A stretch of DNA of 64,000 bases, taken from positions 1,652,001 through 1,716,000 of the forward strand of contig NZ_CP023449.1 in NCBI RefSeq assembly GCF_002355275.1, given 5' to 3'. Of the stretch, positions 38,824 through 64,000 are shown piece after piece. Numbering within the stretch: position 1 is the first letter of the stretch; every line of letters starts with the position of its first letter. The notes beneath the pieces are model-generated. The model searched no databases. It had not been told where the DNA came from and was given only the letters and a program-made list of their open reading frames with translations. The stretch comes from Rhizorhabdus dicambivorans (GTDB taxonomy: Bacteria > Pseudomonadota > Alphaproteobacteria > Sphingomonadales > Sphingomonadaceae). The translations under genes were made by a program, and so were the position numbers.

Positions 38824-38830
38824 CATGGCT

Positions 38831-42482: not shown

Positions 42483-43721
42483 ATGAGCGAAGCATATATT
42501 ATTGATGCGTGCAGAACACCGCGCGGCGTCGGCAAGGTTGGAAAGGGCGCCCTGGCGGATATTCATCCGCAGCGCCTTGCGGCAACCGTGTTGCGAGCGA
42601 TTGCTGAGCGCAATGGTATAAACACCGGTCAAATCGACGACATCATATGGGGCACGTCGACCCAAGTGGGAAAGCAGGGCGGCGATCTTGGCCGAATGGC
42701 GGCTCTGGATGCAGGCTATGATGTCCGAGCCAGCGGCGTCACGCTCGACCGCTACTGCGGCTCCGGCATCACTGCTGTTAGCCTTGCGGCGGCACAGGTC
42801 AAAGCCGGGATGGAAGATCTGGTCGTCGCAGGCGGAACGGAAATGATGTCGTTCACGCCTTCGACGCGCGATCCCAACAAGCCGACGATGATGGATCGTG
42901 ACAATCTTCACCTGCGTTCCGTTCATCCTCAATCGCACCAAGGGCTTTGCGCAGACGCCATCGCGACCATGGAAGGAATCAGTCGCGAGGCATGCGACGA
43001 ATTGGCGTTCAACAGCCAGCAGCGTGCGGGTGTAGCGATCAAGGAAGGTCGGTTCGCCAAGAGCCTGATCCCAGTTTATAAGGACGACGGTTCGCTTGCG
43101 CTCGATCAGGAGGAGTATCCGCGACCGCAGACGACGCTTGAGGCTTTGGCCGGTCTGAAGCCGGCGTTCGAGGCCGTCGCTAATGTGCAGCTCAATGAGG
43201 ATGGCCTCACCTATGCGGGCCTCATTCATCAGGCGTACCCGGATCTCGAAATCAAGCATGTTCATCATGCTGGAAACTCGTCGGGCGTTGTCGATGGCGC
43301 CGCCGCCGTGCTTCTGGCTTCGAAGAGCTATGCCGACAAAAATGGTCTGAAGCCCCGCGCTCGCATCGTCGCAACGGCTAATATCGGGGACTGCCCAACG
43401 TTGATGCTCAATGCTCCGGTTCCTGCGGCCCGCAAAGTTTTGGCGAAGGCGGGCCTGTCGGTCGATGATATCGACCTGTTTGAGATTAACGAAGCGTTCG
43501 CAGCGGTGGCCGAAAAGTTCATCCGCGACCTCAAGCTCGATCGTGACAAGGTTAACGTCAACGGCGGTGCGATGGCGCTCGGTCATCCGATTGGCGCGAC
43601 CGGTGCCATTCTGATCGGAACTATTCTCGACGAGCTCGAGCGTCGCGACCTCCGGCGAGGTCTTGTGACGATGTGCGCCGCCGGAGGTATGGGACCGGCG
43701 ATCATCATCGAACGAATCTAA
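42483..43721 (+). CDS. Acetyl-CoA acetyltransferase / 3-oxoacyl-CoA thiolase
   Basis: 412 residues, full thiolase. Nucleophilic Cys92 in LDRYCGSGITAVS, His in NGGAMALGHPIGATGA, and the second Cys in MCAAGGMGPA. It releases acetyl-CoA from (or condenses) 3-oxoacyl-CoA. Chain specificity is not readable. It is the first gene of the rightward island set; a 184-bp spacer separates it from the MFS gene. Codon use has more A/T in third positions than genes before 41.6 kb. Confidence 0.9.
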   Translation: MSEAYIIDACRTPRGVGKVGKGALADIHPQRLAATVLRAIAERNGINTGQIDDIIWGTSTQVGKQGGDLGRMAALDAGYDVRASGVTLDRYCGSGITAVSLAAAQVKAGMEDLVVAGGTEMMSFTPSTRDPNKPTMMDRDNLHLRSVHPQSHQGLCADAIATMEGISREACDELAFNSQQRAGVAIKEGRFAKSLIPVYKDDGSLALDQEEYPRPQTTLEALAGLKPAFEAVANVQLNEDGLTYAGLIHQAYPDLEIKHVHHAGNSSGVVDGAAAVLLASKSYADKNGLKPRARIVATANIGDCPTLMLNAPVPAARKVLAKAGLSVDDIDLFEINEAFAAVAEKFIRDLKLDRDKVNVNGGAMALGHPIGATGAILIGTILDELERRDLRRGLVTMCAAGGMGPAIIIERI

Positions 43722-43905
43722 TACAACGAGGCGACGTGCCCCGGCGTGTCGCCTCGCAGGGCTACCGTCTTGAGAATGCGGCGTTCACCCTGGGGGAGAG
43801 CGCCGCAACTCCCGCTCGAAAGGGCAACGATCTACAAATGAGCGCAGTGCAGGCCCTGTTTTCAACATTGCGCACCGTCAAACCGGGTGGTGAGAACTAA
43901 TAGTT

Positions 43906-45582
43906 GTGACCGACGAGTTGAACGAGGAGGCCGTGCCGCCGACCATGTCCGCCCGGTCTCCTCTTCGTTTCCCGACATTTCGTAGCCTTTGGTTTGCTAA
44001 TCTTGTCACTGGCATTGGCTACATGATCCAGTCGGTCGGGGCATCCTGGCTGATGCTGGAGCTGACGTCGTCGCCATCGATGGTCGCCCTTGTACAAACG
44101 TCGATCACGCTCCCGATAATGCTATTCTCCGTACTAGCCGGAGCAACGGCCGACAGCTGGGATCGACGGCGCCTTATGCTGTGGTCGCAGACCTTCATGA
44201 TGGCTGTCTCTATCGGTCTGGCGGTCCTGACGCATATTAACCTCGCATCGCCCTACATGCTCCTGGCATTCACCTTCCTCATTGGCTGCGGCAACGCATT
44301 CAATGCACCTGCCTGGCAAGCATCCGTTGGCGACATGGTTCCGAAAGCCTTGCTCCCCGATGCGGTTGCATTGAACAGTGCCGCGTTCAACACGGCGCGA
44401 AGCGCCGGGCCGGCCTTGGGCGGGGCAATCGTTGCTGCCGCGGGGGCCACGACCGCTTTTATGGTGAATTGCGCGACCTATCCGCTGCTCATCATCACGC
44501 TCCTGCGATGGCATCCAAAGCCAGATCCGTCAGCATTGCCTGCCGAGCGGATAGCCGGCGCGATTGCAAGCGGGGTACGCTATGTGTTCATGTCGCCTGA
44601 TCTGCTAAAGACGATCGCTCGGGCCATGCTGATCTCGGTATGCGTGAGTTCGATCCCGTCTCTGCTGCCCATAATTGTCCGTGACGGTCTCAATGGCGCC
44701 GCAACCACCTACGGACTGCTCCTTGCCGCCTTCGGGGCCGGTGCAGTGACGGGTGCCCTCGTCAGCGCACCGCTCAGAAGCCGGTACTCGGTCAATCGCA
44801 TCATTTCCGCCGCTATTGGCCTCGGGGTTCTGGGACTTACTCTTACCGCTCTGTCAACATCTCCTGCCCTAACCGTGCTCGCACTGATCATCGCTGGTGG
44901 CGGTTGGATACTCGCCCTCTCCACGCTCAACGTTACCATGCAGCTCGCTACGCCGCGATGGGTGCTCGCGAGGGCACTCTCGCTTTATCAAATGGCAGCG
45001 TTTGGCGGAATTGCGGTCGGTAGCAGCGTCTTCGGCGCCATTTCGTCGTTGATAGGCGTCAGCAGCGCCATGATTGCGGCGGCCATGCTCTTGTCGATCG
45101 GCCTCGCGGCCGGATTTCTGGACCCGCTTCCCGATCTCGATGGTCTAGATCTCGATCCGTTGCGCAAATGGCAGGAACCTGAAGCGGGACCGTTGATCGA
45201 AGCGAACAGCGGCCCGATCTCGATCACAATCCACTATGAGATCGATACTGTGGAGGCCGCCGCTTTCATAGCGCTCATGCGGGAACGGCGGCGGATCCGC
45301 CGTCGGGATGGGGCGCGAAACTGGGTGCTTCTGCGAGACGTTAGCCAGCCAAACCTTTGGATCGAGCGCTATCAGGTGGCGACATGGCTAGAGTATGTCC
45401 GGCACAACCAACGCAGGACACAGGCCGACGCCGTTAATATCGCGGCAATTACAGCACTTCATACGGCTCCCGGACCTCCGAAAATTTACCGTCGCATCCA
45501 GGTCGATCCGCATAGTCGCCAGCCTGATAGCGCGGAGCAACGAGAACCGCTTTTTCAGCAGGTGATACCGGGCGCTCCATAG
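43906..45582 (+). CDS. MFS transporter of the EntS/MFS_3 (transmembrane secretion effector) type
   Basis: 558 residues from a GTG; alternative starts are GTG 43933 or ATG 43945, near GAGGAGG. Twelve membrane helices (about 25-410), with LAGATADSWDRRRLMLWSQ as the MFS loop A motif. The C-terminal soluble region (about 440-540; RRIRRRDGARNWVLLRDVSQ) is the extra domain found in this subfamily. It likely exports a small molecule or intermediate. It lies between the thiolase and an SDR. Confidence 0.85.
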   Translation: MTDELNEEAVPPTMSARSPLRFPTFRSLWFANLVTGIGYMIQSVGASWLMLELTSSPSMVALVQTSITLPIMLFSVLAGATADSWDRRRLMLWSQTFMMAVSIGLAVLTHINLASPYMLLAFTFLIGCGNAFNAPAWQASVGDMVPKALLPDAVALNSAAFNTARSAGPALGGAIVAAAGATTAFMVNCATYPLLIITLLRWHPKPDPSALPAERIAGAIASGVRYVFMSPDLLKTIARAMLISVCVSSIPSLLPIIVRDGLNGAATTYGLLLAAFGAGAVTGALVSAPLRSRYSVNRIISAAIGLGVLGLTLTALSTSPALTVLALIIAGGGWILALSTLNVTMQLATPRWVLARALSLYQMAAFGGIAVGSSVFGAISSLIGVSSAMIAAAMLLSIGLAAGFLDPLPDLDGLDLDPLRKWQEPEAGPLIEANSGPISITIHYEIDTVEAAAFIALMRERRRIRRRDGARNWVLLRDVSQPNLWIERYQVATWLEYVRHNQRRTQADAVNIAAITALHTAPGPPKIYRRIQVDPHSRQPDSAEQREPLFQQVIPGAP

Positions 45583-45611
45583 CAAGCAGGCAGAAACAAA
45601 GGAGAGACGAG

Positions 45612-46400
45612 ATGCTGGACTTCGAGGGAAGGGTCGCCGTGGTGACCGGCGCGGCTGGCGGCGTAGGTACCGCCTTGTGTCGCAAGCTTGCGGAGCGCGG
45701 AGCCACTATCATCGGCATCGGCCGGACTGAGTCGAAGCTTGCTCAGGTTCGGTCAGCTATTCATCAAACGGGCGGGCAAATGCGCACCGTGGTGGGAGAC
45801 ATCACCGATGCAGCCACAGCCGAGCAGATCGACCAAGCATGTGAGGATGCCGGTGGCATCGACTTGCTGATCAACAATGCGGCCGTCGGCTATTCCTACG
45901 AACGGACTCGGCCCGGCAGCATGGCTATCATTACCGAGCAGTCGGCTGACTCGTGGCGCGAGGTGGTCGACATCAATCTCAACGGCCCTGCCGCCATCAC
46001 GCGCTCGCTCGTTCCAAGGCTTCTCAGACGGGGTCAGGGGGCCAGTATCGTCTTCATCTCAAGCATATTAAGCTTGGGTGGCCATACCAATGCTCATGCC
46101 TACAGCGCATCAAAGGCGGGGATCAATAATCTCGTGCAGTCCCTTGCTGTCACCTATGGCCCGAAAGGTTTGCGCACCAACTGCGTGGCCCCGGGGCTTA
46201 TCGAGACCGAGATGGTCGAGGCGGTGTTGGATTCCGGATTTCTGGATTGCGACGAAAGTCGCTTCGCCTTCTGCCCGCTCGGGCGCGCCGCGCAGGCTGA
46301 TGAGGTCGCAAACGCCGCTCTCTTTCTCGCATCACCGGCTGCCTCTTACATCAACGGCGCCATTCTCACTGTCGATGGGGGCACGTCCGCTAAGGCCTGA
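45612..46400 (+). CDS. Short-chain dehydrogenase/reductase
   Basis: 262 residues, classical SDR. Cofactor loop TGAAGGVG (12-19), NNAA, catalytic Ser then YSASK, and the end FLASPAASYINGAILTVDGG. It oxidises or reduces a hydroxyl/keto group with NAD(P). Candidate roles are an alcohol or a 3-hydroxyacyl-CoA dehydrogenase. GGAGAGACGAG precedes the ATG, 29 bp after the MFS stop. Confidence 0.88.
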   Translation: MLDFEGRVAVVTGAAGGVGTALCRKLAERGATIIGIGRTESKLAQVRSAIHQTGGQMRTVVGDITDAATAEQIDQACEDAGGIDLLINNAAVGYSYERTRPGSMAIITEQSADSWREVVDINLNGPAAITRSLVPRLLRRGQGASIVFISSILSLGGHTNAHAYSASKAGINNLVQSLAVTYGPKGLRTNCVAPGLIETEMVEAVLDSGFLDCDESRFAFCPLGRAAQADEVANAALFLASPAASYINGAILTVDGGTSAKA

Positions 46401-46446
46401 CGCAACGGTCCGGGCATTCGCAAAGTAAAGGAAAGGATGAGGCAGC

Positions 46447-47580
46447 ATGAAGGATACATTTGAGGGGCTGCAGCTCCGATCCACCGTGGACCCATCTGGC
46501 GTGCTTCGCCTCGAACTGGTCGAAATAACAGTATCCGACCCTGCACCCGACGAGGTCATTGTCCGTGTCGAGGCCAGCCCGATCAATCCTTCGGATCTCG
46601 CCGTCCTGCTGGGGGCCGCGACCGCTCCGGCCGACCTCGACACGCTCGAGGTTACAGGATCAGATGAACGGCCCATTGTCCTCGCCAAGGTGCCGCCTGA
46701 GTCGATCGGCGCGCTGAGCGCGAGGATCGGGATTGGGATCACGCCAGGTGCCGAGGGTGCAGGGTCGGTCGTGGCGGCGGGCGAAAATGCCCGGCATCTC
46801 CTTGGTCGTCGGGTAGGAATGCGCGGCGGCGCGATGTACGCGCACTATCGAAAGCTGGGAATGGCCGATTGTGTCCTGCTGCCCGAAGATGTGGAGCCCG
46901 CGGCGGGCGCAGCCATGTTCGTCAATCCGCTCACGGCTCTGGGATTCGTCGAGACCATGCGAACGGAGGGATTTAGCGGAATTGTTCATCTCGCTGCTGC
47001 ATCCAATCTTGGTCAGATGCTCAATCGAATTTGCGTCACTGACCATATCCCGCTCATCAACGTCGTGCGATCAGGTGAACAAGCGAAGCTTCTCATGAAT
47101 CAGGGCGCGCGCTACGTGTTCGACAGCTCGTCGCCCGATTATGAAGAGCAGCTCCGCTCAGCCCTTTACGAGACGAAGATCACGCTTGCTTTCGATCCCA
47201 TCGGGGGCGGAACTCAAGCGAGCCAGGTGCTCGCCGCCATGGAGGCCGCCGCAGCCCGAGACGTAAGCGCCTATAACCGCTACGGGACCGAAGTTTTCAA
47301 GCAACTTTATATCTATGGCATGCTCAACCCATCCCCAACGGTCCTAGATCGTTGGGTCGGGTTTGCATGGTCCGTCGGCGGGTGGCTTCTTACCCACCGG
47401 CTCAAACAAATGGGGAAAGACGACGAAGCTAGGCTGCTAGATAGGGTGCGGAACGAGCTCACGACAACCTTTGCCAGCCACTATACGGCGCGCATGGGGT
47501 TACAGGAAATCCTGCACCCAGATAATATCCGCTCTTTCAGCCGCAAAGCGACCGGCGCGAAGTACCTCGTCACGCCATAG
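46447..47580 (+). CDS. MDR-superfamily oxidoreductase, zinc-independent type
   Basis: 377 residues. GroES-like N-terminal half (PDEVIVRVEASPINPSDLAV), then a Rossmann half with a degenerate cofactor loop (LAAASNLGQMLNRIC) in place of GxGxxG. The catalytic-zinc GHE motif is absent, so it is more like a quinone or enoyl reductase than an alcohol dehydrogenase. It has a long, unusual C-terminal segment (about 280-377). Substrate unknown. Last gene of the rightward set. Confidence 0.75.
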   Translation: MKDTFEGLQLRSTVDPSGVLRLELVEITVSDPAPDEVIVRVEASPINPSDLAVLLGAATAPADLDTLEVTGSDERPIVLAKVPPESIGALSARIGIGITPGAEGAGSVVAAGENARHLLGRRVGMRGGAMYAHYRKLGMADCVLLPEDVEPAAGAAMFVNPLTALGFVETMRTEGFSGIVHLAAASNLGQMLNRICVTDHIPLINVVRSGEQAKLLMNQGARYVFDSSSPDYEEQLRSALYETKITLAFDPIGGGTQASQVLAAMEAAAARDVSAYNRYGTEVFKQLYIYGMLNPSPTVLDRWVGFAWSVGGWLLTHRLKQMGKDDEARLLDRVRNELTTTFASHYTARMGLQEILHPDNIRSFSRKATGAKYLVTP

Positions 47581-47598
47581 AGCGGGCTGCGCATTCAT

Positions 47599-48000: not shown

Positions 48001-48113
48001 GCTTCTCTCCTCCATCATATGATGTCGTAGGGCCGCAGTCATATCGACTTCATACATGTTTGGGGAGATGGTGCTGGTTTCTCCCGAGGATGCCGGGCGA
48101 AGCGGGTTGAATT

Positions 48114-48953
48114 TCAGGGGCGATTGAGCTCAGCACTTATACGGTCGATCTCGCATTCCCCAGTAAGCGTCTGACCGCCAATCTCCAGGAAGCGCATCAT
48201 ATTTTGCCGAGCATCTTTCGTTCGAAGCAGTTGGCGAAATAGGAACACCTCCTCAAGGAGACCTTCCTTCTTACCAAGCTCAGCTGCATCGACCGCGGCC
48301 TTGGCGAGACGGACTGCATCGGGCGGAAAAGATGCAATGCGATCAGCAAGCATGGCAACCTGGGTTCCGATCGCATCGGGTGCGAAAGCACGGTTCAGAT
48401 AGCCCCAGCGTTCCGCCGTTTCGGCATCGAGATCGCTCCCGCTTAGGATGATCTCCAACGCCCGAGCTCGTCCCATAAGTTGCGGCATCTGCTGCGTTCC
48501 GGTGCCGCCTGGAAGGATTCCAAGAGGCACTTCCATCTGATTGATCATCGTTTTTCCGACCACGCCAAAGCGCATGTCGAAGTTCATGATAAGCTCGCTG
48601 CCCACCCCGCCGACTCTGCCCTCGACTTGCGCAATCGTGATCTTGTCCATCGATCGGAAGCGCTCGCACATCGCATGATAGGCGCTGTCCCCCGAGCGAG
48701 GGCGCTCTGCTGCTGCCTCAATCGGAAGGTCGAGGATGCGTTCAATATCGAAGTGAGCAAGAAAGAACTGCGGATTTGCGCTTTTCAGCACGAAGACAAG
48801 GGTATCTGGATCCTTCTCCAGCTCTACGCTCAGCGCGATGAGCTCGGCCATCAACGCTCCTGTCACAAGGTTGAACGGCGGGCTGTTCACCGTCGCGGTC
48901 ATGACACGGCCGACCTTTTCTAAGACAATAAACTTATAGTCTGAATATGTCAT
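48114..48953 (-). CDS. Enoyl-CoA hydratase/isomerase family protein
   Basis: 279 residues from ATG 48951-48953; an in-frame TTG at 48965 gives four more. Crotonase fold, with NPQFFLAHFDIERIL, GRVGGVGSELIMNFDMRFG (oxyanion region) and PLGILPGGTGTQQMPQLMGR. The second Glu of the hydratase pair is not clearly at its usual place (GGTGTQ), so it may be an isomerase or another crotonase type. Separate from its neighbours by about 110 bp each side. Confidence 0.82.
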   Translation of the reverse strand: MTYSDYKFIVLEKVGRVMTATVNSPPFNLVTGALMAELIALSVELEKDPDTLVFVLKSANPQFFLAHFDIERILDLPIEAAAERPRSGDSAYHAMCERFRSMDKITIAQVEGRVGGVGSELIMNFDMRFGVVGKTMINQMEVPLGILPGGTGTQQMPQLMGRARALEIILSGSDLDAETAERWGYLNRAFAPDAIGTQVAMLADRIASFPPDAVRLAKAAVDAAELGKKEGLLEEVFLFRQLLRTKDARQNMMRFLEIGGQTLTGECEIDRISAELNRP

Positions 48954-49077
48954 AGCCGCACCCAAGCGATTTCCTATCTTAGCTCAGCAGATCTTCTCGC
49001 ATCTCATTTGCAGGCCTGCACTGACCATGTCTTTGGTGTCGCAGCTGCCAACCGGTGATCGACCGCGGCCATCCGCC

Positions 49078-49368
49078 TCAGCTCGCCGCGATAGGGCTCA
49101 GCACCAATGCGGTGCGATCAGCCAGTTCGTGGATCTTCGACAGATAGTGGAGAAAATGCGGCGAAGCGCGGTGCGCCGCCACCGCCGCATCGTCCTCGTA
49201 AAGCTCATCGAGCAGGAGGCGGTTCAGATCGGCCTCATCCTGCCAAATGTCCCAGCGCAGATTGCCCGGTTCAGCCCGGCTCGCTGCCAACACTCCGTCC
49301 AATAGGCTGCGTAACGCATCCGCTTTCCCGGGCTTGGCAGTAAGAATCGCGACGATTTTTATGGCCAT
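49078..49368 (-). CDS. Antibiotic-biosynthesis-monooxygenase (ABM) domain protein
   Basis: 96 residues from ATG 49366-49368. A ferredoxin-like ABM fold: KIVAILTAKPGKADALRSLL, EPGNLRWDIWQDEADLNRLL and the FHL-type HASPHFLHYLSK segment. Small dimeric cofactor-free or heme-dependent oxygenases of this type include quinol monooxygenases (YgiN). It may oxidise an aromatic or quinol intermediate. It lies 44 bp downstream of the PcaF-like thiolase, in the same direction. Confidence 0.8.
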   Translation of the reverse strand: MAIKIVAILTAKPGKADALRSLLDGVLAASRAEPGNLRWDIWQDEADLNRLLLDELYEDDAAVAAHRASPHFLHYLSKIHELADRTALVLSPIAAS

Positions 49369-49412
49369 GGTCGGGCTTTGTCCTTGGTTGCGCCGCCAGC
49401 CGGCTATCGTCG

Positions 49413-50621
49413 TCATACCCGCTCGATTGCGATGGCGAGACCTTGGCCAACGCCAATGCACATTGTGATCAACGCCCGGTTGCCGCCACGCTGCTCTAGT
49501 GCGCGCGCGGCAGTGAGAACCAGCCGCGCGCCTGACATGCCTAGAGGATGTCCTAGGGCGATGGCGCCGCCATGCGGATTTACCTTCTCACTAAACGGGT
49601 CGACGTGCAGCTTCCGTAATGACGCGATTACCTGCGAGGCGAATGCCTCATTGAGTTCGATCAGATCGAAGTCGTCAATGCCAAGGCCCAGCCGTTGCAT
49701 CAGCTTTTCGCTCGCGGGCGCCGGTCCTATCCCCATCACCTTGGGGGGGACTCCGGCGGTTGCCATTCCGAGGAACCTCGCCCTGGGTTTCAGGCCGTGA
49801 CGCTTCACTGCGCTTTCCGAGGCGATGAACATCGCCGCCGACCCGTCATTGACCCCCGAGGCATTGCCGGCGGTTACCGTGCCACCCTCGCGAACCACGG
49901 GACGTAGACCGCTCAGGGACTCGGGAGTGGTATTAGCCCTCGGATGTTCGTCCATCGATACGGCAGTCTCGCTCTTCTTTGCCGTGATCGTGACCGGGGT
50001 GATCTCCTCCGAAAAAAAGCCCTGTTGCTGCGCCTTCGCTGCAAGCTGCTGGCTTCTAAGAGCGAAGGCATCCTGCTCCTCACGGCTGACGCCGTGCATA
50101 ACTGCGACGTTTTCCGCTGTCTCCGGCATGGAATCGACGCCATGGGTCTTCTTCATCACTGGATTGATGAAGCGCCAGCCGATCGTGGTGTCCTCGATGC
50201 TAGCCGAACGAGACCAGGCGGTTTCGGCCTTACCAATCACGAACGGAGCTCGCGACATGGATTCGACCCCGCCGGCAATGGCGAAGTCAATCTGGCCGGA
50301 CATGATTGCGCGCGCTGCGTAACCTACTGCATCAGCGCCGCTCGCACAGAGGCGATTGATTGTCGAGCCCGGGACTGACGTCGGCAAGCCGGCCAGCAGG
50401 GCTGCCATGCGAGCCACGTTCCTGTTATCTTCTCCAGCCTGGTTCGCGCAGCCTAATATGACCTCGTCTATCGCGGCCGGATCGATTGCGGGATTCTGTT
50501 CGAGCAATGCCCTGATCGGCACAGCCGCAAGATCGTCTGTTCTTATGGAAGCCAAGGCGCCGCCAAAGCGGCCGATCGGTGTCCGCAGACCCTCGCAAAT
50601 GAAAGCATTGATCAAAGCCAT
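49413..50621 (-). CDS. 3-oxoadipyl-CoA-type thiolase (PcaF/PaaJ-like)
   Basis: 402 residues. STINRLCASGADAVGYAARA carries the nucleophile in the PcaF-like form, followed by VNPHGGAIALGHPLGMSGAR and MCIGVGQGLAIAIERV. PcaF and PaaJ cleave 3-oxoadipyl-CoA to succinyl-CoA and acetyl-CoA. The overall sequence favours that subgroup over biosynthetic thiolases, though a 3-oxopimelyl- or other dioyl-CoA is possible. AAGGA lies before the ATG. Part of the leftward set. Confidence 0.85.
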   Translation of the reverse strand: MALINAFICEGLRTPIGRFGGALASIRTDDLAAVPIRALLEQNPAIDPAAIDEVILGCANQAGEDNRNVARMAALLAGLPTSVPGSTINRLCASGADAVGYAARAIMSGQIDFAIAGGVESMSRAPFVIGKAETAWSRSASIEDTTIGWRFINPVMKKTHGVDSMPETAENVAVMHGVSREEQDAFALRSQQLAAKAQQQGFFSEEITPVTITAKKSETAVSMDEHPRANTTPESLSGLRPVVREGGTVTAGNASGVNDGSAAMFIASESAVKRHGLKPRARFLGMATAGVPPKVMGIGPAPASEKLMQRLGLGIDDFDLIELNEAFASQVIASLRKLHVDPFSEKVNPHGGAIALGHPLGMSGARLVLTAARALEQRGGNRALITMCIGVGQGLAIAIERV

Positions 50622-53716: not shown

Positions 53717-53943
53717 TCCGTTCTCAGCTTTTGACCGGACGCTCCCTGGCTACGAGCGCGGATCCCGCCGCCACATCAAAAGCGCCATCTTGCGCCAAGC
53801 AAGCGACATGCCAGTCTGCCTTGCCACAAAAGTCTGCGCCATTATGGGCTTCACCCATGGACGTGCCGCATGCGGGGCCGATCTTGTCTTTCAGGCGGCC
53901 ACAGGCCGGGCCCGATTGTATTCTTCGACGGCAGGCCTGGGAT

Positions 53944-55790: not shown

Positions 55791-56053
55791 ATCCAGCTCC
55801 TATTCTTTCGGCGGCACCGGTCCGGCCGCTTCGCGGTTGAACAGTATGCAACAACGGTGCCAGTCAGGCTCAATCTGGCATGACGCTTGCTATGAGCTAC
55901 GGGCTCTTCGCATAATTGGAGAGGAGCGGGATGATCTCGCGCGTATTGATCGCGTGGCGACCATCGGAGAGGAAAGTTGAAAGCAGCCCCGATGACAATC
56001 GACCTGACAAAGCACTGCCGCGCGTCCTCCCTGAAGCCCGCGCGAGCGTCACT
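55791..56053. other. Divergent control region between SDR and MFS genes
   Basis: 263 bp between a leftward SDR and a rightward MFS fragment. It holds a plus-strand promoter candidate (see 55887-55916) and the leftward AGGAG site; no gene is convincing. Confidence 0.55.
55887..55916 (+). promoter_or_regulatory. Promoter candidate for the MFS gene
   Basis: TTGCTA at 55887-55892, an 18-nt spacer, CATAAT at 55911-55916, five of six matching TATAAT. The MFS ATG lies about 138 nt downstream. Confidence 0.45.
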
Positions 56054-56350
56054 ATGAGTGATCAAGTGATGGTAACGAGGTCGCCAGCGTCGGCCGAGCG
56101 TGACGGCTGGTATTCCTATTACGTCCTGGTGGTTCTGCTGCTGGTTTACATCTTCAACTTTGTGGACAGGCAGATCCTCGCCATCCTCGCGGAAGACATC
56201 AAGGCGGATCTGGGCATATCCGATTCCCAGCTCGGGTTTCTTTACGGAACGGCCTTTGCGATGTTCTACGCCACGTTTGGCATTGCATTCGGACGCCTGA
56301 GAACACCGGGAATAAAAGGGGCCACGGATCGGCCAGTCTCACCGGATTAA
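56054..56350 (+). pseudogene. MFS transporter, truncated by IS21 insertion (N-terminal 81 residues only)
   Basis: Native sequence runs from ATG 56054 to about 56297: first helix VLVVLLLVYIFNFVDRQILA, then LGISDSQLGFLYGTAFAMFY and the start of FGIAFGRL. This is the N-terminus of an aromatic-acid/hexuronate-type MFS, normally about 430 residues. The frame then enters the IS and ends after about 17 foreign residues. The rest is not found on the other side of the element, so about 1 kb is lost. Confidence 0.85.
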
Positions 56351-56397
56351 AAAGGGGCCAGTCCTGCTAGACCTCCGTTTTTGGGCGGAGGTGGAGG

Positions 56398-57918
56398 ATG
56401 AAGAGAGTGGAGCTTTATCAGAAGGTCCGCCGCGCCGTGCTGATTGACGGGATGAGCCGTCGCGCTGCCGCCCGGTATTTTGGGATCAATCGCAAGACCG
56501 TCGACAAGATGCTGTGCTTTCCAGAGCCAGCAGCGCACGGCCGGAGCGGGCAAACCTACAGCCGCAAGCTGTCCGGATTTACCGACATCATTGACCAAAT
56601 CCTGGTGGATGACCGCAAGGTTCACATCAAACAGCGACACACTGCCGCGCGTATTTTCGAGCGTCTGCGCGATGAACATGGCTTCACCGGCGGCATCACC
56701 ATTGTTCGCGACTATGTGGCGGGCGCCAAGTTGCGCAGCCGCGAGGTGTTCATACCATTGAGCCACAAGCCGGGGCATGCGCAGGTGGATTTTGGTGAGG
56801 CGGACGGGATCATCGACGGCAAGTTGGTGCGGTTCCACTATTTCTGCATGGACCTGCCGCACAGCGATGCGCCGTTCGTTAAAGCCTATCCTGCCGAGGT
56901 GGCTGAGGCATTTTGCGAAGGGCACGTGGCGGCCTTTGCCTTCTTCGGCGGCATCCCGCAGTCGATCCTGTATGACAACACCAAGCTGGCAGTGGCGCAG
57001 ATCCTGGGCGACGGGAAGCGCGAGCGCAGCCGGATGTTCTCGACCCTCCAGAGCCATTACCTGTTCGAAGACAAATTCGGGCGCCCCGGCAAGGGTAACG
57101 ACAAGGGCAAGGTCGAGGGGCTGGTCGGTTATTCCCGGCGCCACTTCATGGTGCCGAGGCCAGAGGCGCCCAGCTTTGATGCGCTGAACGCGCGCTTTGT
57201 CGAACAATGCATGGAGCGACGACAGGCCATCTTGCGCGGGCATGAGCGCAGCATCGGTGACAGGCTGGTGGCTGATCTGGCGGCCTTTATGCCGCTACCG
57301 GCGGTGCCGTTCGATCCCTGCCATATGGTGACGGGGCGGGCCTCGTCGATGTCGCTGGTGCGCTATCGTACCAATGATTATTCGGTGCCGACGGCCTATG
57401 CCCACCAGGAGGTCGTAATCAAAGGCTATGTCGATCGGGTTGCGATCATCTGTGGCGGGGAGCTGATCGCAGTGCATCCGCGCAGCTATGAGCGGGAGGA
57501 CTTCATTGCCAACCCGCTGCACTATCTGGCGCTGTTAGAACAGAAACCCCGCGCGCTTGATCAGGCAGCGCCGCTCGATGGCTGGGTGCTGGCTGAACCG
57601 ATGCATCGCATCCGACGACTGATGGAGGCGCGCAGCGGCAAAGAGGGACGGCGCGAGTTCATCCAGGTGCTGCGGCTATGCGAACGCTTCGAGCAGTCCC
57701 TGGTGGAATGGGCAGTGGCCCGCGCGCTGGAGATGGGGGCAATCAGCTTCGATGCGATCAAGATGATCGCGCTGGCCCGCCTCGAACAGCGTGTGCCGCG
57801 CCTCGATCTGCAATTTTACCCGCATTTGCCGCGCGCGAATGTCGGGCGTACCGATCCGCGCACCTACATGGGCCTGCTCTCGCAGGCAGGCACTCCAGCG
57901 ACGGGAGTGGCAGCATGA
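56398..57918 (+). CDS. istA: IS21 transposase IstA
   Basis: 506 residues. HTH region (GMSRRAAARYFGINRKTVDK), then a DDE core: HAQVDFGEADGIIDGKLV with the first Asp, SILYDNTKLAVAQI with the second, and a Glu in GKVEGLVGYSRRHFM. A C-terminal DNA-binding part follows. GGTGGAGG precedes the ATG. It overlaps istB by 4 bp (ATGA). Confidence 0.95.
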   Translation: MKRVELYQKVRRAVLIDGMSRRAAARYFGINRKTVDKMLCFPEPAAHGRSGQTYSRKLSGFTDIIDQILVDDRKVHIKQRHTAARIFERLRDEHGFTGGITIVRDYVAGAKLRSREVFIPLSHKPGHAQVDFGEADGIIDGKLVRFHYFCMDLPHSDAPFVKAYPAEVAEAFCEGHVAAFAFFGGIPQSILYDNTKLAVAQILGDGKRERSRMFSTLQSHYLFEDKFGRPGKGNDKGKVEGLVGYSRRHFMVPRPEAPSFDALNARFVEQCMERRQAILRGHERSIGDRLVADLAAFMPLPAVPFDPCHMVTGRASSMSLVRYRTNDYSVPTAYAHQEVVIKGYVDRVAIICGGELIAVHPRSYEREDFIANPLHYLALLEQKPRALDQAAPLDGWVLAEPMHRIRRLMEARSGKEGRREFIQVLRLCERFEQSLVEWAVARALEMGAISFDAIKMIALARLEQRVPRLDLQFYPHLPRANVGRTDPRTYMGLLSQAGTPATGVAA

Positions 57919-58730
57919 GTGATCCCATGATGCCGCTGCCAGCCATCGAGGCCGAACCCACCAGCGTGCCGCCCGCTGTACTACTGGCCAACCATCTCAA
58001 AGCGCTCAAGCTGCCCACCTTTGTGCGCGAGTATGAGAAGGTCGCCTTCGAGGCCGCGCAGGATCGGGCCGATTACCCCCGCTATCTGCTGCGCCTGTGC
58101 GAACTTGAACGGATTGATCGCGAGCGCCGGATGGTGGAGCGCCGTATCCGCATGGCTCGCTTCCCGCACACCAAGAGCTTTGACACCTTCGACTTTGCAG
58201 CCCAGCCATCACTGAACAAGGCCTTGGTTCTGGAACTGGCGCGCGGTGAATGGATCGAGCGGCGGCGTAATGTCATTGCGCTGGGCCCCAGCGGCACCGG
58301 TAAGACCCACACCGCCCTCGCGCTAGGACTGGCTGCGTGCCAGAAAGGGCACAGCGTGGCCTTCACAACGGCCGCGGCGTTGGTCCATGACCTGATGGAG
58401 GCTCGCGACGAGCGTCGCTTGCGCAGCCTGCAAAAGCATCTGGCATCTGTAAAGCTGCTGATCCTCGACGAGTTGGGATATGTACCATTCACCGCCGTGG
58501 GCGGCGAGTTGCTGTTCGAGGTACTCAGCCAGCGCTATGAACGCGGCAGCACGCTGATCACCAGCAATCTGCCCTTCGATGAATGGACATCGGTGTTCGG
58601 CTCCGAACGCCTGACCGGCGCCCTGCTCGACCGGCTGACACACCACGTCCACATTCTCGAGATGAATGGTGACAGCTTCCGTCTCGCCAGCAGCCGCAAG
58701 CGCCAGAAGGACAAGGGGGAGGATAAATGA
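57915..58730 (+). CDS. istB: IS21 helper ATPase IstB
   Basis: 271 residues from ATG 57915. AAA+ DnaC-like ATPase: Walker A GPSGTGKTHTALAL, Walker B LLILDELGYVPF, sensor ITSNLPFDEW. It regulates target choice by IstA. Intact, and the ATGA overlap with istA suggests coupled translation. Confidence 0.95.
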   Translation: MSDPMMPLPAIEAEPTSVPPAVLLANHLKALKLPTFVREYEKVAFEAAQDRADYPRYLLRLCELERIDRERRMVERRIRMARFPHTKSFDTFDFAAQPSLNKALVLELARGEWIERRRNVIALGPSGTGKTHTALALGLAACQKGHSVAFTTAAALVHDLMEARDERRLRSLQKHLASVKLLILDELGYVPFTAVGGELLFEVLSQRYERGSTLITSNLPFDEWTSVFGSERLTGALLDRLTHHVHILEMNGDSFRLASSRKRQKDKGEDK

Positions 58731-58746
58731 CCTAAGAACGGGCGGC

Positions 58747-58803
58747 CATCGGCAGCGGGAAATCGGCTTCCGCTCCGCTCCAGCCGCTTCCCCGCTGCCG
58801 ATG
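58747..58803 (+). terminator. Inverted repeat downstream of istB
   Basis: CATCGGCAGCGGG (58747-58759) and its exact complement (58791-58803) form a 13-bp stem with a 31-nt loop, 16 nt after the istB stop and inside the IS. There is no long T-run directly after it, so terminator function is tentative. Confidence 0.5.
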
Positions 58804-58876
58804 CTGCCCAGCCTCAACCTTGGGGCTTTTTGTTCAAACCAACTGGCCCCATTTTAAACCGGTGCCTGGCCCGTTT

Positions 58877-59635
58877 TTATCCCGGCGTTGACACCGGGCC
58901 GGCGCTGAGTTCGGAAAACAGCTGCGAGTCGATCGCCATCATGTCGGTGTAGCTGCCCAGCGCGCCGAAGCGCCAAAGCATCTGCCGGGTGACGGCCACG
59001 GCCACCGGCGACGTCCATTCGGCAATCTCCAACGCCAGCTGTCGGGCGCGTGACAGCAGGTTGTCGGCACCCACTATTTCCGATACGAGGCCCGCACCGA
59101 GCGCCTCCTGGCTGCCGAATGTTCGACCGGTCAGGCACCATTGGAGGGCTTTGCTCGTGCCGACGATCTGGGGCAGGAACCACGCGCTGCCGACCTCGGG
59201 CGTCACTCCTCTTCGGGTGAAGGCAAACGCGAAACGTGCCGTGTCTGAGCAGATGCGGAAGTCGAGAGGCAAGGTGATCGTGGCGCCGATGCCAATGGCC
59301 GCGCCATTGATGGCCGCGATCGAGGGCTTCCGCGCGTTAAACACGGCATCGACGTACAGGCGCTCGGCGTTGGGCTGCGAGGCGTCGGAGGGCGTGGCGC
59401 TCTTGAAGTTGTCGCCGCCCGGAGACAGATCCGCACCTGCGCAAAACGCGCGTTGTCCGGCAGCGGTCAGGATGATGACCCGGACATCGTCATCGCAATC
59501 GGCCGTCAGGAATGCGTCGCGCACTTCCAGTATCATCGGCCTGACATAAGCATTCATCCGGTCGGGCCGGTTGAGCGTGATGGTCGCGATCGGGCCATCG
59601 ATCTGATACAGAATATGTTCATAGGCTAACGGCAT
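58877..59635 (-). CDS. Enoyl-CoA hydratase/isomerase, C-terminus clipped by IS21
   Basis: 252 residues. [14 protein letters not shown] and [20 protein letters not shown] (oxyanion hole), then [20 protein letters not shown] with a Glu in the hydratase/isomerase position. The normal sequence ends at about SELSAGP; the last residues VSTPG and the stop (58877-58879) are encoded by the IS21 right end. Relatives usually have roughly 10-20 more residues, so function may or may not survive. Overlaps the next gene's stop by 10 bp. Confidence 0.85.
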
Positions 59636-61074
59636 GCTTCGTCCTTCAGAGCGCGCCGAAGGCCCAAGGAGACACGGTAGCGAGGATCATGGGTGAGCTC
59701 GAAGATCGAGTCGATGACCAGAGTGATCCGGCCAAGCCCCACCCTTTTGGCCCACTCGATGGGACCAAGCGGATAGTTCACGCCGAAGCGCATCGCCGAA
59801 TCAATTTCTGCCTCTTCCGCCACGCCGTGGAGAAGCGCTTCGAAGGCTTCGTTGGCGAGCATTGCAACCGTCCGCATTGCGACGAGGCCGGGCCAGTCGG
59901 GAAGGCGCGTGGCTCGTTTGCCGGCGCGACCGGCTGTCGCGACAAACCGGTCGGCATGAACATCCGACACATCTTGCGAGGTGCAAAATCCAATCCTGTT
60001 CGATGACCCCGGATCGAGCATGAGATCGAACAGGATCACCGGCCGGCCCTCGGCGTGTGCTCGGTCAGCCGCAGTTCGTCCGTCAGTAAGAGCGATCAAT
60101 ACGCCATCGACGATCGTCTCGCTGCTGAAGGCGGGGGCGTCGTAGGGTTCCGCATCCGAGCATGCCGCGACGGTGTGCGGTTCTTCAATCGGAGAGCCTT
60201 GCCCGTAGTCGTAAAATCCCCGCCCGGATTTTCGTCCGAGCCAACCTGCCTGGACCAACTCGAGCTGCACGAGCGACGGCCGATACCGCGGATCGCCATA
60301 GAAGGCGTCGAACACCGAGCGGCTGACCGCATAGTTAACGTCATGGCCGATCAAATCCATGAGTGCAAAAGGCCCCATGCGAAAGCCAGCCGATCCCGTC
60401 AGAATAGCGTCTATCGCCGCCGGACCGGCGACTTGCTCTTCATAGAGGCGAAGTGCCTCAGCGTAATAAGGGCGCGCCACCCGGTTCACGATGAAGCCGG
60501 GTGTGGAACGTGCCTTGACCGTCGTCTTTCCCCATGAACGCGCCGTCGCGACCAGGCACGCCATCGTGGCGGGAGTGGTCGCGAGACCGCTCACCACTTC
60601 GACGAGCCGCATTACCGGCGCAGGATTGAAAAAATGCAGACCGGCAAAACGGCTAGGCTCATTGAGCTCAGCGCCGATAGCCGTGATCGAGATGGACGAC
60701 GTATTGGACGCAAGGAGCGCATCGGGCGCCACGATAGACTCAAGGCGGGCGAACAAGGCGCGCTTGATTTCCAGATCCTCGACGATCGCCTCGATGGTCA
60801 ACCGCGCAGGTGCGAGGTCATCAATAGTGTCGCAAGGTGTGATGCGCGAGGCAATCGCGTCGGCGTCCTCCGGCGACATCCGACCCTTCTCCGCGCTACT
60901 CTTGAGTTGCGCCCTGGTCCGCTCGCATGCTTCCTGTGCGGCTGCCTCGCGTGAATCGAACAGAAGCACTTTGTGGCCCGCCGCGGCGGCGACATGCGCA
61001 ATGCCCGCGCCCATTGTTCCGGCGCCGATTACTGCGACAATGGCCGAAGCCGGCAAAGCTCCATGCGACGTCAT
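59626..61074 (-). CDS. 3-hydroxyacyl-CoA dehydrogenase, two-module PaaH-like
   Basis: 482 residues from ATG 61072-61074, with GGAGAGGAGGTCGCC upstream. NAD loop [18 protein letters not shown]; catalytic His in [31 protein letters not shown] second C-terminal 3HCDH module (about 390-475, [20 protein letters not shown]) as in PaaH, the 3-hydroxyadipyl-CoA dehydrogenase of phenylacetate degradation. It makes a 3-oxoacyl-CoA. It overlaps the ECH gene by 10 bp and follows the quinone-reductase-like gene. Confidence 0.9.
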
Positions 61075-61093
61075 GGCGACCTCCTCTCCGGGG

Positions 61094-62083
61094 TTATGGC
61101 TCAAGGATCACCTTCCCCTGGACCCGGCTGTGGCGAAGATCTTCCAAAGCCTCCTCAAAGCGGGCGAGCGGCAGTTTCTTAGAGATGTGAGGCTTGAGCT
61201 TGCCCTCCTCCCAGAGCTGGAAAATCTTCTGCTGGGCGACGCGCACACCTTCAGGGTCGCGCTCGCGGTAGTCCGACCACTGAAGGCCCGCGACCGCGAT
61301 ATTTTTCACCAACAGATAGTTTGTCTTGATCGTCGGGATGTTACCTGAGGCAAAGCCGATGATTACCATGCGACCGCACCAGGCAAGCCCGCGCAATGCG
61401 GCCGCGTTGGCTTCGCCGCCGACCGGATCGATGACGACGTCGCAGCCCTTGCCGCTCGTTACGCCATAAACGGCCTCGCGCAGCCCATCCCGTAGGTCTG
61501 CCGCGGCAAGATCGACGACATGGTCGCAACCGAGCGCAGTGGCGACCTGCATATTCTCCGCACCCAGAACGCCGCCGATAACGACCGAAGCACCCATCGC
61601 TTTGGCGAGTTGCACCGCCGCGGACCCGACGCCGCCAGACGCTCCCAGAACGAGCACGCTGTCGCCCGGTTTGAACGATGCTCGATGAACAAGGGCGAAG
61701 TAGGAGGTCTGGTAGACGAGGCCAAGCGCAGCAGCGACATCAAACGGCATGGCTTCGGGCAGACGGAATGCGGATCGGTGCGGAACAATCAGCTGTTCGG
61801 CATAGGCGCCATATTCGACTTGGGCGGCTACCCTACTTCCGATCGCGAAGCCCTCTACATTCGCGCCGGCGGCGGTGACTATTCCAGCGGCCGCTTTACC
61901 CGGAGAAAAGGGCAGGGGCGGCTTGATCTGGTACTTGCCTTCCATCACCAGAAGGTCGGGATAATTTGCTTCGCTCGCGCGCACTTCGATGAGAAGATCG
62001 TCGTTCCCAGGGAGAGGAGCAGCTACCTCCGTGTATCGCGCATTGCCAATCGGCCCGAATTCATTGACCAGTACAGCTTTCAT
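61094..62083 (-). CDS. NADPH:quinone oxidoreductase-like MDR enzyme
   Basis: 329 residues. GroES-like N-terminus ([20 protein letters not shown]), then the cofactor loop [20 protein letters not shown] of the QOR group; no zinc ligands. The end [19 protein letters not shown] is typical. It could reduce a quinone, an enone or an acryloyl-CoA-type double bond. It starts 39 bp downstream of the BadI-like gene and ends 19 bp before the hydroxyacyl-CoA dehydrogenase. Confidence 0.87.
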
Positions 62084-62122
62084 CCCGTCTTCCTCGTCAG
62101 CCTTTCCACGCGCTTGCGTTCG

Positions 62123-62902
62123 TCAGTGCCCGAATTTCGATCCGTCGGGCTTGCGGCGCTCGGCGAAGCTGGCCGACAGCTCCTTGGCTTCATCAGTCCC
62201 GAGATATTGGCGCAACAAAAGGTCGTGGGTCACCCGTGAGAGTCCGGCGACGCCACCGTGACGTGCGTTAAACGCGCCCTTGATCGACGCGAGGGCGAAG
62301 GCGCCGCGATCAGCGACATCCAGGGCGAATTCCATGGTCTTCTGCTTGAGCTCCGCATCGGGAACGACGCGGTTTATAAGTCCGATGGACTGAGCTTCGG
62401 CGGCGCTCAGCTTGATGTTGGTATACCACATCTCCTTCGCCTTCTTCTTGCCGACGAGGTCCTCGAGGTACCAGGTGCCATAACCCGCATCGAACGAGCC
62501 CATCATCGGACCGACCTGTCGGAACACCGCGCTTTCCTTGGCGATCGTGAGATCACAAACCATTTGAAGGACGTTGCCGCCGCCGACCGCAAATCCATTC
62601 ACGCTGGCAATGACGGGCTTCTGTAGCCGATCGATCGCTTCGTACATCTCTAGCGTCGGCAGCACGCCAGCATAGAGATTGGTATCTTCCATCCCGTCCT
62701 TGCGGCCGCCGATGCAGAAGAACTTGTCGCCGGCGCCGGTAAGGACAACCACGCGGGTCCTCGTTTCCCGACGAATTTGCTCGATGCAGTCCCGCAGCTC
62801 ATGGCACATGGTTTCAGTGAACATGTTCCCGTCGTCAGGGCGATTGAGGGTGATAACGCCGACCGGCCCAACCTCTTCGTAAAGAATCTCGGTAAAGCTC
62901 AT
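62123..62902 (-). CDS. Crotonase of the BadI/MenB clade (ring-opening or ring-closing type)
   Basis: 259 residues. SVNGFAVGGGNVLQMVCDLT, then RQVGPMMGSFDAGYGTWYLE and KKKAKEMWYTN match BadI (2-ketocyclohexanecarboxyl-CoA hydrolase) and MenB (naphthoyl-CoA synthase) more than ordinary hydratases, including the VGPkMGSvDpGYGt block and the Asp/Tyr region. In BadI this fold hydrolyses a cyclic beta-keto thioester and opens the ring. GGAGAAG precedes the ATG. First of the IS-side operon after the CoA-transferase. Confidence 0.85.
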   Translation of the reverse strand: MSFTEILYEEVGPVGVITLNRPDDGNMFTETMCHELRDCIEQIRRETRTRVVVLTGAGDKFFCIGGRKDGMEDTNLYAGVLPTLEMYEAIDRLQKPVIASVNGFAVGGGNVLQMVCDLTIAKESAVFRQVGPMMGSFDAGYGTWYLEDLVGKKKAKEMWYTNIKLSAAEAQSIGLINRVVPDAELKQKTMEFALDVADRGAFALASIKGAFNARHGGVAGLSRVTHDLLLRQYLGTDEAKELSASFAERRKPDGSKFGH

Positions 62903-62927
62903 TATATCTTCTCCAGCGTCGTTCTAA

Positions 62928-64000
62928 TCATGCCGTCAGGCCGGTTGTGGCCAGCGCCACATACTCTTTCGAATGTTGGCCGAGGCGGGGCGGGGCCGAA
63001 CAGGGCGTCGCGATCTTACCGTCTATGCGTATTCCCAGCCCAATCTGCGGGACCTGGCGTTCGCCATCGCGAAGCGTGAAAAGAAAGCCGCGGTCGTGCA
63101 GCGCCGTGTCCGCCGCAAGGTCCTCTACGCTGTTGATGGGGCCAGCCGGCACGCGAGCAGATGCGAAGATTGCGAGCCAATGGTCTCGCGATTCCGTGAG
63201 GAGAATGGCCTGAATTCTCTGGACGATCTCCGTTCGACAGTCTCGCCTGGCGGCGTTGCTGTGGAATTCGGGCCGCGCGCCAAAGCCAGGATCTCCCATA
63301 GCCTGCCAGAAGCGACGCCAGATGGCGTCGTTCCCGAGGCCCAGAGTGAGCGGCTGATCGCTGGTCTCGAACTGCTGGTATATTGCGATGACGCTGTCAG
63401 TGCCGCCGGACCTGACAGGAGCTTCCCCGGCCCCAAGATAGGGAGAGACACGGCAGCACAGAAATCGCGTCATGCTTTCAACGAGACTGACGTCGATCAG
63501 ATGGCCTTTCCCCGTGCGCATCCGGTCGAACAATGCGGTGACGGTCGCCATCGCCGCATCCTGCCCCGCGAGCATGTCGGCGGCAGGGGCCCCAACCTTC
63601 TGGGGCGGCCCAGCGGGATCCCCTGTAATGTCCATGATACCAGAATAGCCTTCCGCGATCAGATCGTAGCACGTCAGGTCCGATCGCTGACCGGTCAGTC
63701 CGAAGCCGGTTATGGACGTGAAGATTATGTCGGGCCGCAACTGCGTAAAGCTCTCGTAATCCAGTCCCAGCTTCCTTTGCGCTGCCGGCGGTTGATTGGT
63801 GATAACCACGTCAGCCAGACGCGCCAGGTTGCGAAGGACCTCGCGGTCCTTGCTGTCCTGTAAGTCGAGAACGACGCTCTTCTTGTTGCGGTTGACGGCG
63901 GTGAACCACAACGATTCGCCCTCGAGAAACGGTGGACCCCATTTGCGCGCATCGTCGCCGTCGGGCCTCTCGATCTTGATGATCTCCGCGCCGAAGTCCG
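62928..64000 (-). CDS. CaiB/BaiF family CoA-transferase, 5' end cut by window edge
   Basis: About 356 residues visible; the N-terminus lies beyond 64000. The frame is open at the edge (DFGAEIIKIERPDGDDARKW). Family III signatures: FTAVNRNKKSVVLDLQDSKD, SITGFGLTGQRSD, and the catalytic-Asp segment GAPAADMLAGQDA. It moves CoA from a donor thioester to an acid, activating the substrate or an intermediate. It lies 25 bp before the BadI-like gene, probably in one operon. Confidence 0.93.
   Translation of the reverse strand, partial: DFGAEIIKIERPDGDDARKWGPPFLEGESLWFTAVNRNKKSVVLDLQDSKDREVLRNLARLADVVITNQPPAAQRKLGLDYESFTQLRPDIIFTSITGFGLTGQRSDLTCYDLIAEGYSGIMDITGDPAGPPQKVGAPAADMLAGQDAAMATVTALFDRMRTGKGHLIDVSLVESMTRFLCCRVSPYLGAGEAPVRSGGTDSVIAIYQQFETSDQPLTLGLGNDAIWRRFWQAMGDPGFGARPEFHSNAARRDCRTEIVQRIQAILLTESRDHWLAIFASARVPAGPINSVEDLAADTALHDRGFLFTLRDGERQVPQIGLGIRIDGKIATPCSAPPRLGQHSKEYVALATTGLTA

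Follow-up and report, generated by a model that had tools for sequence, protein, structure and literature searches.

The window is the whole 64,000-nucleotide stretch of Rhizorhabdus dicambivorans DNA that we analyzed (G000:C1:1652001-1716000 of the 5.54 Mb genome, designated G000); positions past its end keep the window numbering (G000:C1 position minus 1652000). Downstream of guaA lies a catabolic island of ~30 kb (41.6-71 kb) that two relatives lack at the corresponding position. Our preferred reading, held with moderate confidence, is that this island was acquired horizontally, serves the degradation of an alicyclic compound by the pathway proposed below, forms one sigma-54 regulon and has been damaged by an IS21-family element. 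The observations on which this reading builds are the gene set, its synteny with Sphingobium sp. AP50, the extra DNA relative to the two relatives, the promoter-like sites and the gene truncations.

Gene content and genomic site of the island

We named the genes from NCBIfam and Pfam scans with curated score cut-offs. The island consists of a left module (thiolase, major facilitator superfamily (MFS) transporter, short-chain dehydrogenase/reductase (SDR) and medium-chain dehydrogenase/reductase (MDR), then SDR, zinc alcohol dehydrogenase (ZnADH), Baeyer-Villiger monooxygenase (BVMO), aldehyde dehydrogenase (ALDH), PcaF, ABM-domain protein and enoyl-CoA hydratase (ECH)) and a right module (ECH, PaaH, PIG3, BadI-like and CaiB); the IS21 element sits at their junction. 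The features are as follows, with identities to the AP50 proteins for the left module:

42483..43721, + strand, thiolase A (PRK06025 subfamily, 779.9 bits against a cut-off of 568); AP50 92%
43906..45582, + strand, MFS transporter (family scan); AP50 79%
45612..46400, + strand, SDR oxidoreductase 1 (family scan); AP50 76%
46447..47580, + strand, MDR-type oxidoreductase (family scans); AP50 82%
48114..48965, - strand, crotonase ECH1 (family scan); AP50 77%
49078..49461, - strand, ABM-domain protein (Pfam ABM; start probably near 49368); AP50 81%
49413..50621, - strand, PcaF, 3-oxoadipyl-CoA thiolase (above the TIGR02430 cut-off); AP50 86%
50695..52125, - strand, ALDH, no subfamily cut-off passed (best HpaE, 411 bits, below 638); AP50 91%
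52220..53716, - strand, type I BVMO, 498 aa (two BVMO motifs, FMO-like in Pfam); AP50 90%
53944..54972 (longest frame to 55053), - strand, ZnADH (family scan); AP50 85%
55002..55790, - strand, SDR oxidoreductase 2, SDR2 (PRK07231 subfamily, 230 bits against 215); AP50 86%
55916..56350, + strand, transporter MFS2, 5' fragment cut by IS21 (AP50 copy intact, 535 aa)
56298..58893, + strand, IS21-family element (istA 56398-57918; istB within 57678-58730; no target duplication)
58877..59635, - strand, enoyl-CoA hydratase ECH2, with IS21 in place of its 3' end (length comparison with AP50)
59626..61104, - strand, PaaH-like 3-hydroxyacyl-CoA dehydrogenase (PRK08268, 603.5 bits, above 508; PaaH TIGR02279, 591.6 bits, below 669.4)
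61094..62083, - strand, PIG3-like NADPH:quinone/enoyl reductase (205.6 bits, below the cut-off of 296.8)
62123..62902, - strand, BadI/MenB-like crotonase, probable ring hydrolase (profiles, MenB structure alignment, conserved residues)
62928..64148, - strand, CaiB/BaiF family III CoA-transferase (longest frame, past the window end; start probably near 64127; best SucGlutTfsCaiB, 278 bits, below 750)
64377..65093, - strand, outside the window, TetR regulator (family scans)
65542..67251, + strand, outside the window, sigma-54 activator (AAA+ and Fis-type helix-turn-helix domains)

The catabolic genes listed by an earlier, sequence-only reading exist, that is, open frames and family scans agree on them; its PcaF/PaaJ-like thiolase was correctly named (661.5 bits against the TIGR02430 cut-off of 597), as was its BVMO, which carries two type I motifs. 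Other names needed adjustment: the PaaH-like dehydrogenase scores above the PRK08268 cut-off but below that of PaaH; the CaiB/BaiF CoA-transferase is a family III member that extends past the window to 64148 but passes no specific cut-off; and, of the enoyl-CoA hydratases, the one at 62123-62902 is a BadI/MenB-type crotonase. A second thiolase (42483) and MFS, SDR and MDR genes on the + strand complete the set, which IS21 splits. The same reading overlooked the BadI-like hydrolase, and the regulator that it regarded as missing is found directly past the window, where the TetR and sigma-54 activator genes are located. A 152-aa frame at 47599-48057 has no Pfam or NCBIfam match, and frame calling at the equivalent AP50 position gave no counterpart.

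That the claimed set is more than a chance assembly is borne out by AP50, in which 11 genes of the left module are colinear and in the same orientation (76-92% identity), together with an intact MFS2, and seven genes of the right module are colinear (77-97% identity); the two modules are located on separate contigs (C57 and C69). In AP50, the genes adjoining ECH2 encode a beta-lactamase-fold esterase (Pfam), a ligase, and PimC- and PimD-like dehydrogenases whose best-scoring families, TIGR03204 and TIGR03203, stay under their cut-offs. Farther along are an HSL-type esterase gene and a thiolase-like gene paired with what we take to be a DUF35-like gene. The AP50 genes that follow MFS2 were identified by eye from their sequences as those for a TonB receptor, an SDR, ligases and two acyl-CoA dehydrogenases.

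In the window, MFS2 retains only its N-terminal part, cut by IS21, and ECH2 has 252 aa (283 aa in AP50), with a C-terminal tail encoded by IS21; no IS21 was recognized at the corresponding gene ends in the AP50 stretches read. The element is 100% identical to a copy on a Sphingobium sp. JS3065 plasmid, and G000 contains 20 near-full copies (99-100% identity, the window copy counted) and one partial copy. The flanks were read for 15 copies: four have a 5-base duplication and 11, including the window copy, do not; many copies, mostly without duplication, suggest recent activity and rearrangement. When the AP50 stretch after MFS2 was used to search the G000 DNA, only two 110-base matches were obtained; the AP50 DNA adjoining ECH2 returned eight matches, all weak (66-78% identity), of which the longest spans 554 bases at 66%. 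The AP50 block itself is not found elsewhere in G000. An IS-linked deletion between the modules is plausible from these sequences, and we infer the direction and extent of the loss; alternatively, IS21 may have fused formerly distant modules rather than deleted the DNA between two IS copies.

The extent of the island is defined by its composition and by relatives. At 42 kb the GC content drops from ~65% to 58-62%, and it remains low until ~68 kb in the extended sequence. All 14 genus genomes (our own counted) have guaA; in two of these (G174 and G114) guaA is followed, after ~1.5 kb, by the sequence that lies at 71.2 and 73.8 kb in the window numbering (four longer stretches were compared), so the window genome has ~30 kb extra. 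In G257 ~12 kb separates guaA from the 71.2 kb sequence, and in G289 only the 72.5 kb piece was matched; from these arrangements, the site is variable. The island was probably acquired horizontally. An exact 12-base search revealed no repeat of the guaA 3' end that could mark an attachment site, ARAGORN predicted no tRNA gene either in the window or at 62-82 kb, and no integrase was recognized for the island. We also considered a plasmid origin and rejected it: when 42-64 kb was compared with PLSDB by megablast, 27 records matched, none of them over ≥80% of the query, and the best 20 of the 27 match IS21 or short gene pieces only.

Two features lie outside the island. The window at 13-35 kb is core chromosome (genes for EF-G, EF-Tu, ribosomal proteins L3 and L2, SecY, RpoA and glutamate dehydrogenase). 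Upstream of guaA, ~2.3 kb (37592-39955) is extra here, that is, ~37591 lies within ~100 bases of ~39955 in the loci of 8 of 13 relatives; within this insert, one frame (37692-38672) encodes an IS481-type transposase and another (38831-39871) has no assignment.

Predicted sigma-54 promoters and the distribution of the modules

We scanned 26.8 kb of the island for -24/-12 promoters using TGGCAC-N5-TTGCW and allowing mismatches only outside the GG and GC cores. Sites were located upstream of five genes:

42408..42423, + strand, upstream of thiolase A (2 mismatches; 15 of 16 bases as in AP50)
53798..53813, - strand, upstream of BVMO (1 mismatch; 16 of 16 bases as in AP50)
55847..55862, - strand, upstream of SDR2 (0 mismatches; 15 of 16 bases as in AP50)
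55876..55891, + strand, upstream of the broken MFS2 (1 mismatch; 16 of 16 bases as in AP50)
64199..64214, - strand, outside the window, upstream of CaiB (at most 1 mismatch)

The four sites with at most one mismatch (BVMO, SDR2, MFS2 and CaiB) are all on the right strand. Random sequences (first-order Markov sequences, not exact dinucleotide shuffles) contain 0.585 such sites on average, with four or more in one of 200; outside the island, two occur in the rest of the window and one in 68.3-142 kb. AP50 agrees: 40 kb of its contig C69 contain seven sites with at most one mismatch (random mean 1.21, highest 5 in 100 runs), one of them inside a ligase gene and probably due to chance, and C57 has three (random mean 0.49, highest 3), of which the site before ALDH2 falls within the longest ALDH2 frame called. 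In ungapped comparison with AP50, the numbers of matching bases among the 60 upstream are 23 (thiolase A), 22 (BVMO), 42 (SDR2), 43 (MFS2) and 23 (CaiB); the upstream regions of SDR2 and MFS2 overlap each other. We found no enhancer dyad shared by the regions upstream of the promoters; the single dyad in four regions stems from two overlapping divergent regions. Taken from sequence, there is good evidence that both modules form one predicted sigma-54 regulon.

A scan of GTDB contigs with the BadI-like protein identified 199 relatives, the closest in AP50 (98% identity); we examined the neighborhoods of 80 of them, together with loci L041 and L042 (82 loci). The neighbors include CoA ligase (72 loci), ECH (66), acyl-CoA dehydrogenase (ACAD; 66), SDR (64), CaiB (62), 3-hydroxyacyl-CoA dehydrogenase (HCDH; 62), a second CaiB (47), PIG3 (35), a sigma-54 activator (34), PaaH (18), and ALDH-like and PcaF-like genes (5 each); these counts are lower bounds because many loci are short. 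A BVMO relative is found in none of the 82, including that of AP50, within fetched flanks of at most 10-12 kb per side. Neither the window nor AP50 has, at this position, the ligase-ECH-SDR-ACAD-HCDH block that normally accompanies BadI; in both, the BadI-like gene is followed by PIG3-PaaH-ECH2. In the 63 of 80 loci with a CaiB match and upstream DNA, a sigma-54 site occurs within ~350 bases before CaiB in 27 (AP50 among them), with ~1.4 expected from the site density in the same loci; the site is present in 19 of 29 loci with an activator in the locus and 8 of 34 without one (in three of the 63, the CaiB match is a paralog at 30-32% identity, without the site). Among 384 other genomes sampled from the class, seven have a BadI-like relative (71-80% identity, E 1e-80).

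Among 397 family genomes (two first-look candidates scored per genome), the BVMO-ZnADH-SDR2 DNA is matched whole only in G000 (E 1e-200), and 18 others match the BVMO part only; among 94 genomes of the AP50 genus (three candidates scored per genome), only AP50 covers ALDH to SDR2. Two candidate carriers of the left module were rejected: G691 has ALDH (79%), SDR2-like (44%) and ECH2-like (52%) genes close together and no BVMO in 37 kb, and G767 has a BVMO (67%) without the rest of the set. The search for the same gene set elsewhere that had been proposed from the sequence thus recovered both modules in AP50, but only in that one other genome.

The proposed pathway and its alternatives

The predicted regulon would be driven by the activator at 65542-67251, putatively acting through the promoter-like sites above. 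SDR2 or ZnADH would oxidize a ring alcohol to the ketone, and the BVMO would convert the ketone to a lactone; a hydrolase (none recognized in the island) would open the lactone, and an alcohol dehydrogenase (ADH) and ALDH would then produce a dicarboxylate. CaiB would load CoA on the dicarboxylate, and the chain would be shortened by an ACAD (not in the island), ECH, PaaH and either PcaF or thiolase A. The BadI-like enzyme would hydrolyze a 2-oxo-cycloalkane-carboxyl-CoA that stems either from another ring or from a branch for ring acids. Recombination involving IS21 would have cut MFS2 and ECH2 and probably removed a segment between the modules; the cluster is damaged here for these reasons. 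Every reaction, like the substrate, is a prediction from gene families. The dicarboxyl-CoA end is supported by PcaF, which scores above its cut-off.

Type I BVMOs are characterized by the fingerprint FxGxxxHxxxW[DP] and a second motif, [AG]GxWxxxx[FY]P[GM]xxxD. The island BVMO has both: FNGLLVHAQQWD at residue 166 matches the fingerprint, for which the strict form is present in seven of 30 relatives checked (several others have Y for the first F), and GGTWDTHKYPGVRSD at residue 50 matches the second motif, as do 30 of 30 relatives. Its PDB matches include phenylacetone monooxygenase (PAMO) and cyclohexanone monooxygenase (CHMO), with the best stretches in the N-terminal half (within residues 6-273); it passes no NCBIfam cut-off, and with these partial PDB matches we do not place it in the cyclohexanone monooxygenase (ChnB) family. 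Relatives occur in 213 of 298 family genomes (own counted; E 1e-80; best other 76%) and are common in the family at 60-76% identity; in 20 BVMO neighborhoods we found no ALDH, ZnADH or SDR2 relatives (38% identity, half coverage), and an ECH2-like gene in three and a PcaF-like gene in three. Because relatives are common and those neighborhoods lack ALDH, ZnADH and SDR2, no tie between this BVMO and cyclic ketones can be drawn. Linear ketones are substrates of EthA- and AlmA-type BVMOs, so ring opening by this BVMO is plausible rather than established.

The 62123-62902 product is a probable ring hydrolase. It scores below the cut-offs of both badI (TIGR03210, 211 bits, below 467.6) and menB (TIGR01929, 215 bits, below 342.7). 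In BadI/MenB-type crotonases, the GSxD segment belongs to the active site and a C-terminal tyrosine is likewise functional; both are present here, and G135, S136, D138 and Y233 are invariant in 16 aligned sequences, with the protein also aligned to MenB structures. A second BadI/MenB-type paralog (43% identity) is located at G000:C1:4234724-4235512.

Two steps that had been reported as missing, the lactonase and the ACAD, were indeed not recognized when the frames up to 74 kb were inspected by eye (the rest of the genome was not searched for a lactonase at the protein level), so that reading past 64 kb yielded regulators but neither enzyme; candidates are, however, present in AP50, and PimC/D-like pairs occur elsewhere in G000. 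On protein-level reading, five of the eight weak-match loci (four places) pair a PimC-like gene (40-50%) with a PimD-like gene (32-39%), and two overlapping loci among the eight have a ligase at 38%; the pairs are located near G000:C1 1159784, 1231101, 4044391 and 4177218. Given these ACAD pairs, the damaged pathway may still run. The sequence-only proposal of a route from a cyclic ketone to a dicarboxyl-CoA is upheld for its lower part by PcaF, the PaaH-like enzyme and the PimC/D-like enzymes in AP50, but not for the cyclic ketone.

Several points weigh against the reading of one damaged alicyclic regulon. No specific curated cut-off is reached by BVMO, ALDH, the BadI-like enzyme or CaiB; members of the BVMO family often occur where these neighbors are lacking; and the left set is carried by one other genome only, AP50. 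Original adjacency and deletion are not proven, because the modules are on different AP50 contigs, and the lack of a duplication at the window IS21 is weak evidence when 11 of 15 copies lack one. With PimC/D-like pairs elsewhere, the ACAD step is not missing from the genome. If two mismatches are allowed, the island has six promoter-like sites (5.64 in mononucleotide shuffles; 7, 8 and 9 in flanking segments); the two added are the thiolase A site, also in AP50, and one inside PcaF, and since such sites are no commoner than chance, only its conservation in AP50 backs the thiolase A site. At the CaiB site, just 12 of 16 bases agree with AP50.

An unlikely variant of our reading is that the substrate is an alicyclic natural product, bicyclic or with a side chain (e.g., a terpenoid), degraded by a hybrid pathway in which one sigma-54 activator would control two kinds of ring opening, one ring being attacked by Baeyer-Villiger oxidation and the other by BadI-like thioester hydrolysis; sigma-54-CaiB-BadI clusters would then be a widespread, uncharacterized ring-cleavage class apart from bad-ali. 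It is doubtful that the BVMO opens no ring and instead acts on linear or side-chain ketones (subterminally, that is, via secondary alcohol, ketone, ester, and alcohol plus acid), with ALDH and beta-oxidation completing the route; the EthA- and AlmA-type precedents fit this, as does a 46% BVMO relative on a Sphingobium sp. TomMM15 plasmid that adjoins annotated ligase, acyl-CoA dehydrogenase, 3-hydroxyacyl-CoA dehydrogenase and thiolase genes, but PcaF above its cut-off and the PimC/D-like genes indicate dicarboxylates, and a BadI-like ring hydrolase belongs to the same predicted regulon.

We judge it improbable that IS21 joined two unrelated modules by chance, one for the BVMO and one for alicyclic acids akin to the widespread CaiB-BadI cluster. 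The separate AP50 contigs and the scarcity of left-module genes in the 82 BadI-like loci (BVMO 0, ALDH-like 5, PcaF-like 5) would be expected from such an event; however, operons of the left and the right module alike are preceded by this type of promoter-like site in the window genome and in AP50, AP50 carries the two modules without an IS21 recognized at the matching gene ends in the stretches read, and neither genome has the usual ligase-ECH-SDR-ACAD-HCDH block beside BadI. A cyclohexanol (chn-type) pathway to adipyl-CoA is very improbable: ADH, BVMO, ALDH and PcaF do follow one another on one strand, but the island has no recognized lactonase, the match of the BVMO to CHMO structures covers its N-terminal half, and the BadI-like, CaiB and PIG3 genes would be superfluous.

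Comparison with known systems

The chn cyclohexanol pathway of Acinetobacter consists of ADH, BVMO, ALDH, an adipyl-CoA type thiolase and a lactonase. The island has the first four; it differs from chn in that no lactonase was recognized, the BVMO is of another subgroup, and BadI-like and CoA-transferase genes and sigma-54 sites are present. A literature search on AP50 or on cyclohexanone-to-adipyl-CoA conversion retrieved nothing.

In two published reports, BadI-type hydrolases belong to cyclohexanecarboxylate (PMC9795900) and monoterpene (PMC4109377) routes. The bad-ali pathway (Rhodopseudomonas palustris, Aromatoleum sp. CIB; PMC9795900) shares the BadI-type ring hydrolase and dicarboxyl-CoA beta-oxidation with the island; here, in contrast, the score is below the BadI cut-off, the window has no badH, aliA, aliB or badK beside the BadI-like gene, the neighbors are PIG3 and CaiB, a BVMO module is added, and a sigma-54 activator and TetR replace the MarR-type BadR of Gram-negative bad-ali clusters. 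The mrc genes for monoterpene ring cleavage in Castellaniella defragrans likewise lie on a genomic island that serves an alicyclic substrate, and they include one for a BadI-like hydrolase; MrcE is stated to be 88% identical to an Azoarcus BadI. The mrc route is oxygen-independent, and the passages of PMC4109377 consulted mention no BVMO. In the anthraquinone plasmid cluster of Sphingobium sp. AntQ-1 (PMC9836352), a BVMO is proposed to open a ring ketone; by its description, this cluster is set apart by its aromatic substrate and by the pairing of the BVMO with a hydrolase.

Related loci besides AP50 are the CaiB-BadI-ligase-ECH-SDR-ACAD clusters of Proteobacteria (e.g., Celeribacter indicus pP73A and Aminobacter aminovorans pAA02), with BadI proteins 77-86% identical in the named loci. 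Titles and abstract openings provided no description of a sigma-54-controlled BadI-CaiB cluster, a weak statement of absence. Unlike the window, most of these clusters retain the ligase, ECH, ACAD, SDR and HCDH genes, and none has a BVMO relative in the fetched flanks; like the window, they have CaiB and, at the frequencies given above, PIG3, a sigma-54 activator and PaaH. Across Proteobacteria, the CaiB-BadI cassette is found repeatedly and in many cases has a sigma-54 site; the window illustrates that an IS element can leave a cut catabolic cluster looking nearly complete, and AP50 is a strain in which a BVMO module and a BadI-like hydrolase under one predicted sigma-54 regulon are directly testable.

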